The translations under genes were made by a program, and so were the position numbers. The notes beneath the pieces were generated by a model. The model had not been told where the DNA came from and ran no database searches. It saw only the letters and a list, made by a program, of their open reading frames with translations. Positions 39,769-48,729 of a stretch of DNA of 64,000 nucleotides are shown here, one piece after another; position 1 is the first letter of the stretch, and each line of letters starts with the position of its first letter. Source of the DNA: Arenimonas maotaiensis (GTDB lineage: Bacteria; Pseudomonadota; Gammaproteobacteria; Xanthomonadales; Xanthomonadaceae). The DNA lies in NCBI RefSeq assembly GCF_014638745.1, contig NZ_BMFO01000004.1, positions 1-64,000 on the forward strand. Direction: 5' to 3'.

Positions 39769-40193
39769 GCGGACTCCGCGGTATGTTGGATGAAGGCGAG
39801 CAGGGCGGCGAAGCCGTTGCTGCGGGTGGGGGAGAGGTGCTTGGACAGGCCGATGGCTTGCACGAAATCCGGCGCGGTGGCGCGTATCTCGGCCGGCGTG
39901 CGCCCGGAATACACGCGTAGGGCCAGATACACCAGGCCGGACACGATGCTGGAGTCGGAGGCGGCGGCGAAGAACAGCCGGCCGTCGCGCGCCTCCGGCA
40001 CGATCCAGACTTTCGACTGGCAACCCTGCAGGCGGTTGGCCTCGGTCTTCCAGTCGTCCGGGAAGGCCGGCAGGCGCTTGCCCAGGTCGATCAGGTATTG
40101 ATAGCGTTCGGACCAGTCGCCGAAGAAGCCGAACTCCTCGACGATGGCGGCCTGCGCTTCGGCGGCGCTGGCTTCGGGCGGCGTCAGCATCAT
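39765..40193 (-). CDS. sufE: Cysteine desulfuration protein SufE
   Basis: A 142-residue sulfur acceptor that takes persulfide from a cysteine desulfurase for iron-sulfur cluster assembly. The acceptor is Cys58 in [12 protein letters not shown], the conserved SufE motif, and [15 protein letters not shown]-type C-terminal sequence ([18 protein letters not shown]) is present. It overlaps cysS upstream and the DUF885 gene downstream by four bases each. A SufS partner is not in the window. Confidence 0.95.
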
Positions 40194-41560
40194 GCCCGTT
40201 TCCAGCGCACGCCCTGCGGCGTGTCCTCCAGCAGAATGCCCTCATCCGCCAGCTGCTTGCGGATGGCGTCGGCACGCGCGAAATCCTTGCCGGCCTTGGC
40301 GGCGGTGCGTTCGTCGACCAGGCCCTGGATGCGGCTGTCGTCGCTGCCGTCGGCGCCGCGGGTGAACCAGGCTTCCGGCGACTGCTGCAGCAGGCCGAGC
40401 GCTTCACCTGCGGCCAGCAACTGCGATTTCAGCGCCGCGCGCTCGGCCGCGTCTTCGCTGCGGCGCGCCTGGCCGGCCAGATTGGCGAGTTCGGCCAAGG
40501 CCTGCGGGGTGTTGAGGTCGTCGCACAGCACGGCTTCGACGGCCTCGGGGATTTCGCCCGGCGTGGCGTCGACGTCGGCGAGGTCGCGCAGGGTGCCGTA
40601 CAGGCGGTCGAGCGTCTTGACGCTCTGTTCGATCAGCGCATCCGACCAATCCAGCGGCTGCCGGTAATGCGCCGAGAGCAGGGCATAGCGCAGCGCTTCC
40701 GGCGGATGTTTGGCCAGCAGCTCGTGCAGCACGCTGACGTTGCCGACCGACTTCGACATCTTGCTGCCGCCGAAGTTGAGCATGCCGTTGTGCAGCCAGA
40801 AGCGCGCGAACACCTTGCCGCCGTGCGCGCAGGTGCTCTGCGCGATCTCGTTCTCGTGGTGCGGGAACTGCAGGTCGACGCCACCGGCGTGGATGTCGAT
40901 GGTCTCGCCCAGATGGGCTTCGCTCATCGCCGAGCACTCGATGTGCCAGCCCGGCCGGCCCACGCCCCACGGCGAATCCCAGCCCGGCAGGTCGGGCGTG
41001 GACGGTTTCCATAGCACGAAATCGCCTGGATGGCGCTTGTACGGCGCCACGTCCACGCGCGCGCCGGCGATCATTTCGTCCAGGCTGCGGCGCGAGAGAT
41101 GGCCGTATTCGGCGTAGCTGTCGACCGCGAACAGCACATGGCCTTCGGCGGCATAGGCGTGCCCGGAATCGATCAGGCGCTCGATCATCGCGATGATGTG
41201 CGGGATGTGCGCGGTGGCGTGCGGTTCGATGTCCGGCGGCTGGATGCCGAGCGCGGCCATGTCGGCGCGGTAGATGGCGGTGTATTTGTCGGTGATGGCC
41301 GAAATCGGCACGCCGGCGTCCTTGGCCGCGGCGTTGATCTTGTCGTCGACGTCGGTGATGTTGCGGGCGTAGGTCACTTTCGGGTAGCGCCGGCGCAGCA
41401 GCTTGACCAGCACGTCGAACACCACCGGGCCGCGGGCGTTGCCGATATGCACGTAGCTGTACACCGTAGGGCCGCACAGGTACACGGTGACGTTGGACGG
41501 ATCGGCGGGTTCGAAGACCTGCAGACGGCGGGTCAGGTTGTTGTGGAAATGGATGCTCAT
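40190..41560 (-). CDS. cysS: Cysteinyl-tRNA synthetase
   Basis: A 456-residue class I synthetase. The zinc/HIGH region is [18 protein letters not shown] and the KMSKS loop [11 protein letters not shown]; the C-terminal DALR domain is present. The length matches E. coli CysS. It heads a three-gene unit with sufE and the DUF885 peptidase, each pair overlapping by ATGA, and diverges from the arginine operon leader. Confidence 0.97.
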
Positions 41561-41615
41561 GCCGGCATTTTAGCAAGCTTTGGCCGCCGATTTAGCCCGA
41601 ATTCAGCGCCGCGCC

Positions 41616-41644
41616 TTGCCCGTACGCGGGTTTTGGCCCATAAT
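41616..41644 (+). promoter_or_regulatory. Promoter of the arginine operon leader
   Basis: TTGCCC (41616-41621), 17 bases, CATAAT (41639-41644). Transcription would begin near 41651, immediately before the leader-peptide ATG at 41652, about 180 bases upstream of argF'. Confidence 0.55.
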
Positions 41645-41651
41645 CGCCGGC

Positions 41652-41747
41652 ATGTGCCCGAATTTCTCCGCCGTCGAGTTCCTGTCGTCCGCCCGCATGG
41701 CGTCGTCGATGACCTCGCGTGCCCGCCGACCGTTGCCGACAAGATAG
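41652..41747 (+). CDS. Candidate arginine leader peptide, 31 aa
   Basis: A short frame from ATG 41652 to TAG 41745-41747 whose final part reads TSRARRPLPTR-stop: four arginines in the last ten codons (CGT, CGC, CGA, AGA), plus one earlier. CGA and AGA are rare in this genome. It lies between a good promoter and an intrinsic terminator upstream of the arginine biosynthesis genes, the layout of a ribosome-mediated attenuator. No ribosome binding site is visible; the predicted transcript starts at or one base before the ATG, so translation may be leaderless, or internal ATGs (41697, 41709) may be used. This is an inference from sequence. Confidence 0.45.
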   Translation: MCPNFSAVEFLSSARMASSMTSRARRPLPTR

Positions 41748-41804
41748 CTGGGTCTCCGGAGCATTCGCATTTTCCATAGAAACCCAGCCCAGGCTGGGTT
41801 TTTT
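41747..41804 (+). promoter_or_regulatory. Candidate attenuator of the arginine operon: terminator with competing antiterminator
   Basis: An eight-base-pair stem (AACCCAGC 41781-41788 with GCTGGGTT 41793-41800, loop CCAG) followed by six or seven T residues is a clear rightward terminator, though no gene precedes it. GCTGGGT at 41747-41753, starting within the leader stop codon, is complementary to ACCCAGC at 41782-41788 and could form an antiterminator. A ribosome at the stop codon would cover 41747-41753 and allow termination; a ribosome stalled at the CGT-CGC-CGA codons (41718-41729) would leave it free. Confidence 0.6.
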
Positions 41805-41833
41805 CGTTTCCGCGCCCCCACAAGGATCCCACC

Positions 41834-42850
41834 ATGCAGCATTTCCTCAACACCCAGGATTGGTCGGTCGACGGCCTGCAGCACCTGCTGGCCAAGGCCA
41901 GCGAGTTCAAGGCCAACAAACTCGGCGACCAGCTCAAGGGCCGTTCGATCGCGCTGCTGTTCTTCAATCCCTCGATGCGCACCCGCACCAGCTTCGAGCT
42001 CGGCGCCTTCCAGCTGGGGGCGCACGCCGTGGTGCTGCAGCCCGGCAAGGACGCCTGGCCGATCGAGTTCGAACTCGGCACCGCGATGGACGGCGACACC
42101 GAGGAGCACATCATCGAGGTCGCCAAGGTGCTGTCCTCCTATGTCGACATGATCGCGGTGCGGGCCTTCCCGAAATTCATCGATTGGCAGGACGACCGCC
42201 AGGACAAGGTGCTGAACGCCTTCGCGCGCTACGCCACGGTGCCGGTCATCAACATGGAGACCATCACGCATCCCTGCCAGGAACTGGCGCACATCCTGGC
42301 CCTGCAGGAACAATTCGCCACCCGCGACCTGCGCGGCAAGAAATACGTGCTGACCTGGACCTATCACCCGAAGGCGCTGAATACCGCCGTGGCCAACTCG
42401 GCGCTGACCATCGCCACCCGCATGGGCATGGACGTGACCCTGCTGTGCCCGAACGCGCAGTACCTGCTGGACGAACGCTATATGGGCTGGGCCGAGGACA
42501 ACGCCCGCGCCGCCGGCGGTTCGTTCACGGTCAGCCACGACATCGAGCGCAGCTATGCCGGCGCGCACGTGGTGTACGCCAAGAGCTGGGGCGCGCTGCC
42601 GTATTTCGGCAACTGGGGCGCCGAACAGCCGATGCGCGAGCAATACAAGCACTTCATCGTCGACGAGGCCAAGATGGCGCTGACCGACGGCGGCGTGTTC
42701 TCGCACTGCCTGCCGCTGCGCCGCAACATCAAGGCCACCGACGCGGTCATGGACTCGCCGGCCTGCATCGCCGTGCAGGAAGCCGAAAACCGCCTGCATG
42801 TGCAGAAGGCGGTCATGGACACCCTCATCAACCATCCCGAAATCCGCTAA
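41834..42850 (+). CDS. argF: N-acetylornithine carbamoyltransferase
   Basis: A 338-residue transcarbamylase of the argF' type, making N-acetylcitrulline from N-acetylornithine and carbamoyl phosphate. The carbamoyl-phosphate loop is SMRTRTSFELG. The distinctive AOTCase segment PIEFELGTAMDGDTEEHI replaces the ornithine-transcarbamylase substrate loop, and the C-terminal HCLPLRRNIKAT segment is typical. It is the first structural gene after the leader; AAGGAT stands before the ATG. Known from Xanthomonas and a few other lineages, it requires a deacetylase acting on acetylcitrulline, provided by the argE-type gene at 44056. Confidence 0.96.
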   Translation: MQHFLNTQDWSVDGLQHLLAKASEFKANKLGDQLKGRSIALLFFNPSMRTRTSFELGAFQLGAHAVVLQPGKDAWPIEFELGTAMDGDTEEHIIEVAKVLSSYVDMIAVRAFPKFIDWQDDRQDKVLNAFARYATVPVINMETITHPCQELAHILALQEQFATRDLRGKKYVLTWTYHPKALNTAVANSALTIATRMGMDVTLLCPNAQYLLDERYMGWAEDNARAAGGSFTVSHDIERSYAGAHVVYAKSWGALPYFGNWGAEQPMREQYKHFIVDEAKMALTDGGVFSHCLPLRRNIKATDAVMDSPACIAVQEAENRLHVQKAVMDTLINHPEIR

Positions 42851-42862
42851 GGAAAATCCCCC

Positions 42863-44059
42863 ATGAAAGACGTCGTCCTCTCGTTCTCCGGTGGCCTGGA
42901 CACCAGCTTCTGCATTCCCTACCTGCAGGCGCAGGGCTACCGCGTGCATACCGTGTTCGCCAACACCGGCGGCGTCAGCGCCGAGGAGCTGGCCTACATC
43001 GAGCAGCGCGCGGCCGAACTCGGCGCGGCGTCGCACCGCACGCTGGATCTGGCCCAGGATCTGTTCGAATCCTTCGTCACGCCCTTCGTCTGGGCCGGCG
43101 AGAACTACCAGAACCAGTATCCGCTGCTGGTGTCCGACCGCTACCTGATTGTGCAGCATACCTTGGCCCGTTGCCGCGAGCTCGGCACCCGCTACGTGGC
43201 GCACGGCTGCACCGGCATGGGCAACGACCAGGTCCGCTTCGACGTCGCCATCCAGTCGCTGGGCGATTACACCATCCTGGCGCCGATCCGCGAGATCCAG
43301 AAGCAGCACACCCATGTGCGCCAGTACGAGCAGGAATACCTGGAAGCCCGCGGCTTCGCGGTGCCGGCCAAGCAGAAGGCCTACACCATCAACGAGAACG
43401 TGTTGGGCATCACTCTGTCCGGCGGCGAGATCGACCAATGGCAGGCGCCGGCGCCGGAACTGAAGGGCTGGTGCGCCAAGCGCGCCGAGTGGCCGATCGA
43501 GGCCCTGCAGGTCCGCCTCGGCTTCGAGAACGGCGTGGCCGTGCGCCTGAACGGCCAGCCGATGGCCGGGGGCGCGATGCTCAAGGAACTGAACCGCCTG
43601 TTCGCCGCCTACGGTGTGGGCACCGGCCTGTACACCGGCGACACCACCATCGGCCTCAAGGGCCGCATCGTGTTCGAAGCCCCGGGACTGACCGCCCTGC
43701 AGACCGCGCACCGCGCGCTGGAAGAGGCGGTGCTGAGCAAACAGCAGAACCGCTTCAAGCCCACCGTCGGCCGTAAATGGGTGGAGCTGGTGTACGAAGG
43801 CTTCTTCTTCGATCCGCTGAAGACCGATCTGGAGGCCTATCTGCGCGCCAGCCAGGGTTGCATCAACGGCGAGGTCACCCTGCGCACCGAGGGCGGCTCG
43901 GTCACCGCCGTGGCGGTCGAATCCGCGCATATCCTGCAGGCCAAGGGCGCCACTTACGCGCAGTCCGCGAACTGGGGCGCGGCCGAGGCCGAGGGCTTCA
44001 TCCAACTGTTCGGCATGAGCTCGAACCTGTGGGCCAAGGTCAACGGAGACCGTGCATGA
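42863..44059 (+). CDS. argG: Argininosuccinate synthase
   Basis: A 398-residue ATP-dependent ligase joining citrulline and aspartate. The PP-loop is [16 protein letters not shown], with [15 protein letters not shown] and [12 protein letters not shown]. The sequence and starting segment resemble the short Xanthomonas/Bacteroidetes-like type rather than the E. coli form. It is 12 bases after argF' and overlaps the deacetylase gene by four bases. Confidence 0.95.
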
Positions 44060-45156
44060 GCGAGGCCCTGCTGGCGCGGACGCTCGAGCACCTGAGGCAT
44101 CTGGTCGCGTTCGATACCCGCAATCCGCCGCGTGCCATCGGCACCGGCGGCATCTTCGATTACCTGCGCGCCAACCTGCCGGACTTCAGCTGCACGCTGA
44201 CCGACCACGGCGCCGGCGCGGTGTCCCTGTTGGCCGTGCGCGGCGCGCCGACCACGCTGTTCAACGTACATCTGGACACGGTGCCGTCGGCGCCGGGTTG
44301 GAGCCGGAATCCGCATGAACTGCTGGTCGAAGACGGCCGTGCCATCGGCTTGGGCGCCTGCGATATCAAGGGCGCCGCCGCCGGCCTGCTGGCCGCGGCC
44401 GAATCGGCGACCGGCGACGCCGCGTTCCTGTTCAGCAGCGACGAGGAGGCCAATGACCCGCGCTGCATCGCGGCCTTCCTGGCCGGCGATCACGGCTTTA
44501 CCGATGTCATCGTGTCCGAGCCGACCCGCTGCGAAGCGGTGTTGGCGCACCGCGGCATCGCCGCGGCGATGGTCCGGTTCCGCGGCGAATCCGGCCATGC
44601 CTCGAAAATCCGTAATCCGATGCAGAGCGCCGTGCACCAGGCCCTGCTTTGGGGCGGGCAGGCGCTGGCGTTGGCCGAACGGGAAAACCATCAGCGCTTC
44701 GGCGGCCTGACCGGCATGCCGTTCAACATCGGCAGGATGGACGGCGGCATCAAGGCCAACATGATTGCCGGCGAAGCCGAGCTGCGCCTGGGCTTCCGGC
44801 CGTTGCCGACGCAGTCGCCGGAGGCGTTGCACGCCGCGTTCGCGGCCCTGTTGCCGGAGGTCGCGAAAGACTACGAAATCACCTTCGCCGGTCCGACGTT
44901 GCCGGCCGGCGACACCGCCCAAGCTGAAGCCCGCCGGTTGCGCGCCCGTGATTTCGCCGAGGCGCTGGAGTTGCCGGTCGGCCACGCGGTCGACTTCTGG
45001 ACCGAGGCCTCGCTGTTCTCGGCCGCCGGCCTGAACGCCCTCGTGTTCGGCCCCGGCGACATCGCGCAGGCGCACACCGCCGACGAGTGGGTGGCGCTGG
45101 AGCAGCTGCAAACCGCCGTCCGCCATTACGTCCGCATCCTCGGAGGCCGCGCATGA
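44056..45156 (+). CDS. argE: Acetylcitrulline/acetylornithine deacetylase (M20 family)
   Basis: A 366-residue zinc-dependent deacetylase. Ligands: [12 protein letters not shown], the aspartate in [13 protein letters not shown], the glutamates in SSDEEANDP, and ESGHASKI in the dimer domain. In Xanthomonas the equivalent enzyme acts on N-acetylcitrulline, matching the carbamoyltransferase encoded two genes upstream. It overlaps argG and argB/A by ATGA on both sides. Confidence 0.92.
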
Positions 45157-46477
45157 GCGCCGATAGCCAAGTCCGCGACACCATCGTGCGCCTGCTCAGC
45201 AACATCGGCAGCGCCAAGGAGATCCAACAGTACCTGAAGCGCTTCTCGCAGCGCGACGCCTCGCGCTTCGCCGTGGTCAAGGTCGGCGGCGCCATCCTGC
45301 GCGACGACCTCGACGCGTTGGTGTCCTCGCTCGGGTTCCTGCAGCAGGTCGGCCTGACGCCGATCGTGCTGCACGGCGCCGGTCCGCAGCTGGATGCCGA
45401 GCTGGCCGCGCAGGGCGTGCGCAAGCGCACCGTCGACGGCCTGCGGGTGACCACCGGCAAGGTGTTGAAGACCGTGCGCCGGGTCTGCCTGCAGGAGAAC
45501 CTGCGCCTGGTCGAAGCGCTGCAGGTGCAGGGCATCCGCGCCGTGTCGCTGAATTCCGGCGTGTTGGAAGCCAAACTGCTGGATGCCAAGCGCTACGGCA
45601 TGGTCGGCAAGGTGGTGACGGTGCATACCGAGGCCATCTATTCGGCGATCAAGTCCGGCTCGATCCCGGTCATCTCCTCGCTGGGCGAAACCGCCGACGG
45701 CCAGATCGTCAACATCAACGCCGACTGGGCCGCCAACGAAGTGGTCAAGACCCTCAAGCCGTACAAGATCATCTTCCTGACCGGCACCGGCGGCTTGCTC
45801 GACGGCGAGGGACGCATCATCGATTCGATCAACCTGTCCACCGACTACGCGCAGCTGATCCGCCAGCCCTGGCTGCATTCGGGCATGAAGGTCAAGATCG
45901 AACAGATCGCCGCCCTGCTGGAGGATCTGCCGAAGGAAAGCTCGGTGTCGATCACCAAGCCGTCCGAGTTGGCCAAGGAGCTGTTCACCCACCGCGGTTC
46001 CGGCACCTTGGTGCGCAAGGGCCAGCGCATCCAGTCGGCGAAGGGCTGGTCCAGGATCGACAAGGTAAAACTGCAGAAGCTGCTGGAGTCCGGCTTCGGC
46101 AAGAAGATGCGCGCCGGCTATTTCCGCGACAACAGCCCGGCCAAGGTCTATTACAGTGCCGATTACCGCGCCGCGCTGGTGTTGCTGGACGCGCCCGGCG
46201 GCCGTTATCTCGACAAGTTCGCGGTCGCCGATGACGCGCAGGGCGAGGGCCTGGGCGCCGCCGCCTGGTCGGTGATGCGGCAGGAGACGCCCAAGCTGTT
46301 CTGGCGTTCGCGGCACGATAATCCGATCAATGCCTTCTACCTGCAGGCCGCCGACGGCTGCCTGAAGTGCGGGCATTGGACGGTGTTCTGGTACGGGCTG
46401 GAGGGTTTCGCCGAAATCGAACGGGCGGTGGCCTACTGCCTGGACAAGCCGGCCAGCTTCCACGAAGCGGAGGGCGC

Positions 46478-46481
<4 letters not shown>
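45153..46481 (+). CDS. argB: Bifunctional N-acetylglutamate kinase/synthase
   Basis: A 442-residue fusion. The N-terminal amino-acid-kinase domain (about 30-290) shows [25 protein letters not shown] and [13 protein letters not shown]. The C-terminal part (about 300-442) is the vertebrate-like GNAT synthase domain with [24 protein letters not shown] and [18 protein letters not shown]. It carries out the first two steps of arginine synthesis and is usually feedback-inhibited by arginine. It overlaps both neighbouring genes by four bases. Confidence 0.95.
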
Positions 46482-47430
<949 letters not shown>

Positions 47431-47434
<4 letters not shown>

Positions 47435-48729
47435 ACGACAACGTCATCTGGGCCAAGCCCGGCTTCGAAATCGACGCCGCCATCCAGCGCTTCCTGGCCG
47501 GCGAGGACATCCAGTCCGACCGCGCCCTGTTCGTGTACGACATCGCGGCCAGCAAGGCGCATGCCGAGGGCCTGCAGCGCATCGGCATCCTGAGCGAAGC
47601 CGAATGCGCCGATTTGCTGCGCGAGCTGGATGCCTTGGCCGCGCTGTACGCCGCCGGCGGCTTCACGCTCGATGAGCGCTTCGAGGACGGCCACAGCGCC
47701 ATCGAGCAGTTCCTGACCGAGCGCTTGGGCGATACCGGCCGCAAGATCCACACCGGCCGCAGCCGCAACGACCAGGTGCTGGTCGCCTCGCGCCTGTGGC
47801 TGAAGGCCCAGCTGCACGAGCTCGCGTCGCTGTGCGCCGGCATCGCCGCCGGCGCCCTGCAACGCGCCCGCGCCGAAGCGCTGGTGCCGATGCCGGGCTA
47901 TACCCACCTGCAGCGCGCCATGGTGTCCTCGCTCGGCATGTGGTGGGGCGCTTGGGCCGAGGCCTTCCTCGATGATGCCGAACGCGCCCGCCAGACGCTG
48001 ACTTGGATCGACGCCAATCCGCTCGGCTCGGCGTCCGGCTTCGGCGTCAACCTGCCGCTCGACCGCGCGCACAGCACGCAGGCGCTCGGCTTCGCGCGCA
48101 CCCAGCAGGTCGCCACCTATGCCCAGCTGTCGCGCGGCAAGTTCGAGCTGGCGGCGCTGGAGGCCTTGTTGTCGGCGATGGGCGACCTGCGCCGGTTGGC
48201 GTGGGACCTGTCGCTGTTCACCAGCAGCGAGTTCGGCTTCGTGCGCTTGCCGCCGGCCTACCAGACCGGCAGTTCGCTGATGCCGAACAAGCGCAATCCG
48301 GATCTGGTCGAATTGCTGCGCGCTTCCTATGCCGTGGTGTCCGGCGCGCGCAATGAGCTGGAGCAGGTACTGTCGTTGCCGTCCGGCTACCACCGCGATC
48401 TGCAGTTCACCAAGGCGCCGGTGCTGCGCGGTTTCGGACATGGCTTGGCGGCCTTGGCCTTGGTGCCGGAACTGCTGGCCAAGCTGGAATGGCATCCGGA
48501 GGCCTTGGACGCGGCCATCGAGCCGTCGATGCACGCCACCGACCTGGCCATCGAGTTCGCGCGCGACGGCCTGCCGTTCCGCGAGGCTTACGTGAAAGCG
48601 GCCGATCCTGCGCTGTGGCAGGGTCGCTCGGCCGATGACAGCCTGCAGGCGCGGACCTCGGCCGGTTCCGGCGTCAATTTGGGGTTGGACGTGTTGGCGG
48701 CGCGGCTGGCGGTCTTCACCGCCGGTTGA
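47431..48729 (+). CDS. argH: Argininosuccinate lyase
   Basis: A 432-residue member of the fumarase/aspartase superfamily that releases arginine and fumarate. Signature segments: [47 protein letters not shown] and [12 protein letters not shown], which contains the catalytic serine loop. It is slightly shorter than the E. coli enzyme. It is the last gene of the operon; its stop is directly adjacent to the convergent GspE-type gene, and no terminator is visible between them. Confidence 0.96.

Follow-up and report, generated by a model that had tools for sequence, protein, structure and literature searches.

The stretch of DNA analysed here, 64,000 nucleotides (nt) of Arenimonas maotaiensis (contig NZ_BMFO01000004.1, positions 1 to 64,000; the window in the following), contains the arginine operon argF'-argG-argE-argB/A-argC-argH, and the leader in front of it is, judging from sequence comparison and modelled folding, very probably a ribosome-mediated transcription attenuator of the trp/his type, with charged arginine transfer RNA (tRNA) as the signal. 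The comparison establishes an open reading frame (ORF), conserved Arg codons, two alternative pairings, the register of the stop codon and the position of the promoter, with no ArgR domain (PF01316) found; translation, stalling, arginine dependence and read-through are what we infer from these. A preliminary description of this DNA had proposed an arginine attenuator upstream of the operon, and the conserved Arg codons, the alternative pairing and the fact that ArgR was not found all favour that proposal.

All parts of the leader lie on the forward strand. The promoter TTGCCC-N17-CATAAT (41616-41644) is present where it had been described and is the sole sigma-70-like site in 41000-42500 (0.3 expected from shuffles). 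Transcription probably starts at 41650-41652, i.e. at the leader ATG or at most 2 nt before it, given the spacing from the -10 box (the ATG is 7 nt behind it), the start of the model for the small RNA (sRNA) Xoo5 and the length of that model, which equals that of the RNA in Xanthomonas oryzae by rapid amplification of cDNA ends (RACE). The leader ORF (41652-41747; 31 codons and TAG at 41745-41747; translation MCPNFSAVEFLSSARMASSMTSRARRPLPTR) has no Shine-Dalgarno sequence and includes the core MTSRARR (41709-41729), with the Arg codons CGT (41718-41720), CGC (41724-41726) and CGA (41727-41729). The frame had been singled out for the four Arg in the ten residues SRARRPLPTR; these are there, conservation being limited to the first three. 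GCTGGGT (41747-41753, strand 2), whose first base is also the final one of the leader stop codon, can pair with ACCCAGC (41782-41788, strand 3), which is common to this antiterminator and to the intrinsic terminator (41778-41804: a 5' arm ending in ACCCAGC, the loop CCAG, the 3' arm GCTGGGT at 41793-41799 as strand 4, and six T). Both the pairing at the stop codon and the rightward terminator that no gene precedes had been pointed out earlier, and both were confirmed. Since cysS (40190-41560) is divergent from the operon and no rightward gene lies directly before the terminator, its interpretation as the end of an upstream gene was rejected.

The attenuators of the trp, his and leu operons of proteobacteria consist of a leader ORF with codons for the end product, a terminator before the first gene, a competing antiterminator and a stop codon located at strand 2, and in all of these respects the argF' leader is like them. 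In the mechanism we propose, transcription would start at the leader AUG or immediately upstream of it, and the ribosome could thus load without a Shine-Dalgarno sequence and follow the RNA polymerase. With arginine plentiful, the ribosome would pass the Arg codons, reach the stop codon and cover GCUGGGU; ACCCAGC would then pair with the downstream GCUGGGU, the terminator would form and an RNA of about 155-160 nt would be released. With arginine scarce, the ribosome would stall on CGY-GCN-CGY-CGA and leave the upstream GCUGGGU free to capture ACCCAGC, and with the antiterminator formed the polymerase would read through and the arginine operon would be made.

Conservation of the arginine codons

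A protein scan with argF' recovered 332 relatives, of which the best 80 were kept, and the core (ATG ACN TCN CGN GCN CGN CGN, at most two mismatches) is present in 81 of 81 argF' loci, i.e. the window and the 80 kept. The nearest of the latter, with an argF' that is 93% identical, comes from an Arenimonas metagenome-assembled genome; the genome of the window itself measures 2.16 Mb. The exact DNA pattern for MTSRARR occurs in 280 of 297 genomes of the Xanthomonadaceae (49 of 54 genera), in single copy except for two in genome G078, and the pattern read backwards, used as a control, had two matches in the 297 genomes; none of the 226 genomes of the gammaproteobacterial class outside the family (229 searched) contained it. 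An exact match is missing from 17 family genomes, ten of which have a complete argF' (E < 1e-170): nine of these ten carry the core at no more than two mismatches, and the contig of the remaining one (L159, dropped) ends 93 nt before argF'. The other seven showed no argF' (best match 9e-9 at 28% identity, or weaker), and three of them are 72-85% complete. Outside the family but within the order the pattern matches in 25 of 102 genomes (3/3 in family f2, 5/10 in f3 and 17/18 in f12), and three apparent misses in f3 and f12 (G298, G309, G324) read MTSRARR on inspection. The loci that had been fetched with the pattern (L082-L151) have argF' in 69 of 70 cases; the exception, L137, is the second match in G078 and was dropped, as there is no argF' there. 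A permissive scan gave a terminator-like match in 158/158 core loci, the best-scoring one in L018 and L152 probably not being the true terminator. A separate observation concerns L155 (G168), where the core starts with CTG in place of ATG and the stop codon has disappeared from its usual position with the terminator intact, possibly through decay or a sequencing error.

The choice of Arg codons is narrow. Within 116 distinct core leaders the first two are CGC or CGT at 231 of 232 positions (one CGA, zero CGG, zero AGR) and the third is CGA in 107/116, and with CGA at 1.5% and CGG at 10.2% of the Arg codons in argF' at these loci, the rare CGA is over-represented in the leaders. The dense Arg windows of the leaders of other families, described below, contain CGC 62, CGA 52, CGT 24, CGG 3 and AGA 2 times; as related sequences are not independent, no probability is attached to these codon counts. 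The tRNA-Arg anticodons in the genome of the window are ACG, TCT and CCG (from the typing of 30 of the 42 tRNA loci together with neighbouring ones) and also CCT, and inosine-modified ACG reads CGU, CGC and CGA, the last poorly. Because the leader Arg codons are nearly all CGC, CGT or CGA, the device seems to read the charging of one tRNA-Arg isoacceptor, and the signal is most likely the charging of the single isoacceptor that reads CGU, CGC and CGA.

At the level of the peptide, the ratio of non-synonymous to synonymous differences (pN/pS) is 0.008 for the six codons of MTSRAR (pS 0.405), as compared to 0.283 for codons 20-120 of argF'. The seven codons before the core have 0.463, the whole stretch of 14 codons has 0.286 and the out-of-frame readings give 2.0 and 3.5; the low value in the core alone shows that the unusual constraint is confined to it.

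In families f4, f6, f7, f9 and f10 argF' is found at 59-67% identity and without the MTSRARR peptide, many leaders there encoding unrelated peptides with Arg runs (e.g. NPRRRRVLQSTAG, ALRRRRRLSQRRAG, PGRRARRTRRPLLAG and IRRLRRPRTGNRAG). A strong terminator is present in 34 of the 42 upstream regions of f4-f7, f9 and f10, and 33 of these 34 have an ORF that ends 5-75 nt before the terminator and holds at least three Arg in eight codons (19% in shuffles); 25 of the 33 hold at least four (5% in shuffles). Arg codons that are kept while the peptide drifts are the signature of codon-reading attenuation. The preliminary description had tied its proposal to relatives keeping the Arg codons or the alternative pairing, and both are kept, even where the peptide has wholly changed. 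A chance origin of the leader was rejected on the pattern counts, on the pairing versus shuffles and on the Arg-rich ORF versus shuffles.

ArgR (PF01316) was found in 0 of 79 sampled genomes of the family, an ArgR of the AraC type not having been searched for; the control search was positive in 9 of 14 known genomes. Elsewhere in the order 34 genomes were tested, and PF01316 was present only in the four of family f11 (G306, G315, G323, G330), where the ArgR gene and an argF' homologue of 37-42% identity point away from each other at a distance of about 1.2 kb; it was not found in the tested members of f4, f6, f7, f9 and f10. The two f11 upstream regions that were read (L234 and L235, from G306 and G323) have no leader and no strong terminator, and this pattern suggests that repressor and attenuator replace each other. 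Three further observations were made in these families: G300 (f5) and G304 (f9), of the two families with argF' loci that have no strong leader terminator, had no PF01316 match either; L226 (G302, f7) shows two copies of the leader segment before argF', the first containing an N, which may be a duplication or an assembly artefact; and the argF' of L210 (G374) has one in-frame TGA according to the search.

Promoter position and competing RNA structures

The position of the promoter relative to the leader start was scanned with a TTG -35 and a NANNNT -10 element at a spacing of 16-18 nt. Of the 153 distinct core leaders, 129 have a promoter that ends 6-11 nt before the leader start (controls 19, 11 and 0), and of 33 leaders of other families 21 have one that ends 6-10 nt before it (controls 2, 0 and 0). 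The full hexamer match is weak in most core promoters, with 6 of 12 bases in 96/153 and none found in 17. A Shine-Dalgarno-like 4-mer precedes 14/153 core and 2/33 other leader starts, versus 44 and 19 argF' starts. The missing ribosome binding site and the apparent leaderless start, which had been noted for the window, were confirmed and are shared by most of the 153 core leaders; such a start has a precedent in the trpL leader of Sinorhizobium meliloti (PMC7298713; here and below, papers given by PMC number are cited for the parts consulted).

The 158 core loci yielded 147 distinct leaders, of which L018 and L079 were dropped for lack of a strand-3 motif, so that 145 were scored for the alternative pairing. 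The best ungapped 7-mer partner of the terminator 5' arm matches at 6.57 of 7 positions on average, versus 4.97 in shuffles, and beats the shuffles at p <= 0.05 in 116/145. Strand 2 starts 6 nt before the stop codon in 118/145 and 2 nt after the first base of that codon in 8, the register of the window; from these counts and from modelled folding, the leader stop codon is placed such that a ribosome there would mask strand 2. The best partner does not start before the stop codon in 17/145, and in 8 of these (window included) it is still GCTGGGT, which is non-coding there and is thus conserved as RNA. As an observation on the register itself, the ORF of the window and of L025, L045, L061 and L144 stops three codons early (at core+36, usually +45), with GCTGGGT or GCTGGGC unmoved, so that frame and RNA element are shifted relative to each other.

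For the alignment tests 45 of the 158 sequences were chosen for diversity (L112 being visibly misaligned). Over these, the antiterminator has 94.0% standard pairs (24-54% in slid versions), its central pair being UA in 28, CG in 10, UG in 4 and unpaired in 3, and the terminator has 100% standard pairs, with four pairs changed on both sides; RNAalifold on this alignment recovered the terminator only. On the argF' tree, which covered the 145 leaders except for one with a short argF' and 11 out-of-register rows, the outer pair of the terminator changed consistently in 4-6 of 7 cases and in none oppositely (median p 0.06). The window leader folded alone (184 nt) was no better than shuffles (z = -0.52), and the case therefore rests on comparison.

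The effect of the ribosome was modelled by treating the RNA as covered as far as 12 nt beyond the A-site codon and predicting how the nascent strand folds; these are equilibrium predictions for an assumed ribosome footprint (n=144, one row with strand 2 > 20 nt from the stop codon being dropped). With the ribosome stalled at the third Arg codon, the predicted probability that strand 3 pairs with strand 2 is 0.936 on average (window 0.978), and with the ribosome at the stop codon it is 0.008 (window 0). Strand 3 is paired with anything upstream at 0.957 in the stalled state, as compared to 0.441 for shuffled sequence. The other families (n=33) behave likewise in the model, strand 3 being paired upstream at 0.80 when stalled and at 0.15 at the stop. 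A universal protector hairpin between strands 1 and 2 was also considered and found unsupported in many clades.

The sRNA Xoo5 and rival explanations

The RNA has been reported before, as the sRNA Xoo5 of X. oryzae, a transcript of 124 nt between PXO_00354 and PXO_00353 with a 5' end determined by RACE (Liang et al. 2011, PMC3039613, where PXO_00353 appears in Table 4 as N-acetylornithine carbamoyltransferase). The corresponding Rfam family, RF02242, scores above its gathering threshold on the argF' leader in 7 of 14 relatives tried, with up to 144 bits, and does not reach it in L001, L006, L112, L128, L131, L226 and L236; the window has 23.3 bits in a permissive search (gathering 50). By Rfam model and locus Xoo5 is the argF' leader RNA, the window itself being below the family threshold. 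The Rfam model is 124 long and begins with cuAUG, which would put the RNA start 2 nt before the leader AUG. The Xoo5 5' end is then located at the leader promoter, which supports this promoter in X. oryzae, and transcripts starting downstream of 41804, the other possibility named in the preliminary description, do not agree with it. Northern analysis gave bands of about 130 and 100 nt, both early in growth and the short one alone late (PMC3039613). Two details of the same data stand by themselves: the cloned 3' end lies about 10 nt before the 5' arm of the terminator, as judged on L142 (Table 2 of PMC3039613), and the band of about 100 nt that is the sole one late in growth would reflect some processing.

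Several observations weigh against an attenuator as described. The length of Xoo5 (124 nt) and its bands fall short of the approximately 159 nt that the transcript of a close match would have if it ended at the T run, for which trimming, processing or cloning bias are possible reasons. No strong terminator was found in 8 of the 42 upstream regions of the other families (L227 in f5; L233, L254, L256, L257, L258, L260 and L263 in f9), and L255, with a strong terminator, has no Arg-rich ORF. The conservation of MTSRAR goes beyond the needs of the Arg codons alone, as the sensing of codons does not demand an invariant M, T, S and A. The best ungapped 7-mer match is below 6 in 16/145 leaders, the pairing apparently being shifted in some. 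For the centre pair of the antiterminator, about 2 of 6 independent pairs on the argF' tree were consistent and 0 opposite in all but a few of 200 pairings, which is not significant; of the alignment of upstream regions that the preliminary description had proposed, the conserved Arg codons came out clearly, whereas the covariation was mostly consistent in direction with too few independent changes for significance. Finally, with the ribosome at the stop codon strand 3 is still paired elsewhere at 0.37 on average (0.04 in the window), and in the folds without a ribosome the protector hairpin reaches a probability above 0.5 in only 36% of sequences (0.09 in the window) and strand 3 of the window pairs with strand 2 at 0.85; with such a weak protector hairpin, an untranslated leader might be read through.

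The Xoo5 data also allow for an RNA that acts in trans and nothing else, in which case the terminator would close an sRNA gene and argF' would lack an attenuator. Xoo5 is confirmed by Northern analysis with a mapped 5' end, Rfam gives its type as 'Gene; sRNA', and the attenuated trp leader RNA of S. meliloti does act in trans (PMC7298713). An sRNA alone would however leave unexplained the codon-level selection on MTSRAR, the persistence of Arg-codon runs and alternative pairing while the sequence is lost, and the presence of argF' in nearly all pattern-fetched loci; Xoo5 is moreover one of five likely Hfq-independent sRNAs of which the functions were left to be elucidated (PMC3039613). We regard this explanation as very improbable, while a role in trans additional to attenuation may exist. 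Less credible still, to the point of being negligible, is a constitutive 5' terminator that sets a basal level and senses nothing: it would agree with a single-sequence fold that is no better than chance, and is contradicted by the conserved competing pairing, the register of the stop codon in 118/145 leaders and the enrichment of Arg codons.

An unlikely explanation, though one to be taken somewhat more seriously, is that nascent MTSRARR is an arrest peptide, maybe with arginine or a pathway intermediate as its ligand, which replaces the hungry Arg codons or adds to them. In the core families M, T, S and A are indeed nearly as invariant as R, and the codons, except that for Met, vary synonymously. 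Yet the peptides of f4, f6, f7, f9 and f10 are unrelated and retain the Arg codons alone, and constraint on the seven residues that precede the core is weaker than on argF' itself. The distance from core start to stop codon ranges from 24 to 48 nt in the rows shown, with 69 in L152 and 141 in L155, which makes arrest at the stop by a fixed motif unlikely, and the bias towards CGY and CGA suggests that a tRNA is sensed. A combination of codon sensing with such a peptide is a tentative idea that we would give some, though clearly the lesser, credence: in the Xanthomonadaceae and three related families the leader might be a sensor with two inputs, in which the CGY/CGA codons report the charging of a single tRNA-Arg and the nascent MTSRARR delays or halts the ribosome or, once released, works in trans, with the Xoo5 RNA as a possibly regulatory by-product and the whole standing in for ArgR across much of the order.

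The operon, related systems and biological meaning

The operon that the putative attenuator precedes is encoded on the forward strand and starts with argF' (41834-42850), the gene for N-acetylornithine carbamoyltransferase (NF003384, 589.6 bits, cut-off 288), which is followed by argG (42863-44059, argininosuccinate synthase, NF003385), argE (43777-45156, acetylornithine deacetylase, NF006439; ORF as listed, family match from residue 97), argB/A (45087-46481, acetylglutamate kinase with a C-terminal extension, NF003386; ORF as listed), argC (46367-47434, TIGR01850; ORF as listed, family match from residue 46) and argH (47431-48729, argininosuccinate lyase, TIGR00838; 275.6 bits, slightly below the cut-off of 279.5).

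In comparison to the trp, his and leu attenuators, the argF' leader differs in its specificity for arginine, a start within about 2 nt of the AUG, a codon bias towards one isoacceptor with the rare CGA, a near-invariant MTSRARR in four families and a protector hairpin that is not universal. ArgR acts on the same target pathway, but as a protein repressor. T-boxes sense the charging of tRNA at the RNA level by direct binding of the tRNA and without a leader peptide; neither a T-box nor a known riboswitch was found in the window, where two tRNAs alone reach the gathering score, and the four weak Rfam matches of 41600-41850 include no T-box. RF02242 describes the same RNA in the same place, but is filed as a stand-alone sRNA and its model ends before the terminator. 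Arginine T-boxes are mentioned in PMC1262725, of which the survey of Actinobacteria, in the parts consulted, reports no RNA element at arginine operons.

A parallel in what is sensed is speF of Salmonella, where ribosome pausing on consecutive Arg codons of the 34-codon orf34 senses low arginine (PMC6386406); that system differs in that it controls ornithine decarboxylase via Rho, RNase G and translation, with no intrinsic terminator. The 31-residue leader of the window had no Pfam match up to E = 1, thus no DUF2618, and the peptide is unrelated to that of orf34. The trpL leader of S. meliloti (rnTrpL) is alike in that transcription begins at the leader ATG itself and a small RNA results; it differs in sensing tryptophan and in a peptide that is unconserved between species except for the Trp residues, and this peptide, peTrpL, was shown to have a role in trans (PMC7298713). 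The leader uORFC-8-2 of cysS in Rhodobacterales was likewise predicted by comparison, with conserved codons and an intrinsic terminator, but has cysteine codons, precedes a tRNA synthetase gene and belongs to alphaproteobacteria (PMC8632094). Attenuation of carA in Pseudomonas is described as linked to pyrimidines, with a leader peptide in P. aeruginosa (PMC4997734).

With respect to the control of arginine synthesis, PMC5343134 treats the ArgR regulons of six taxa, with none for Xanthomonas in the parts seen, PMC1382215 names the acetylornithine enzyme of X. campestris, with nothing on its control in the parts seen, and in the main text of PMC2965389 argG, argF, argC, argH, argS and words beginning with 'argin' were not found. 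The preliminary description knew of no arginine leader-peptide attenuator. For a biosynthetic operon none was found in searches of open-access literature either, and older work or comparative surveys may hold one; the RNA itself, however, was already known as an sRNA family, and the sensing of Arg codons was known from speF.

If the proposed attenuator is real, arginine would join the amino acids of which the biosynthetic operons are under leader-peptide attenuation, and it would be explained how Stenotrophomonas, Lysobacter, Xanthomonas and their relatives might control arginine synthesis without ArgR. It would also provide a function for an Rfam small RNA that was described in 2011 with none assigned. 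The natural gradation from a fixed MTSRARR to drifting Arg runs, mostly read by one isoacceptor and enriched in CGA, would moreover make the theory of codon choice in attenuators directly testable.

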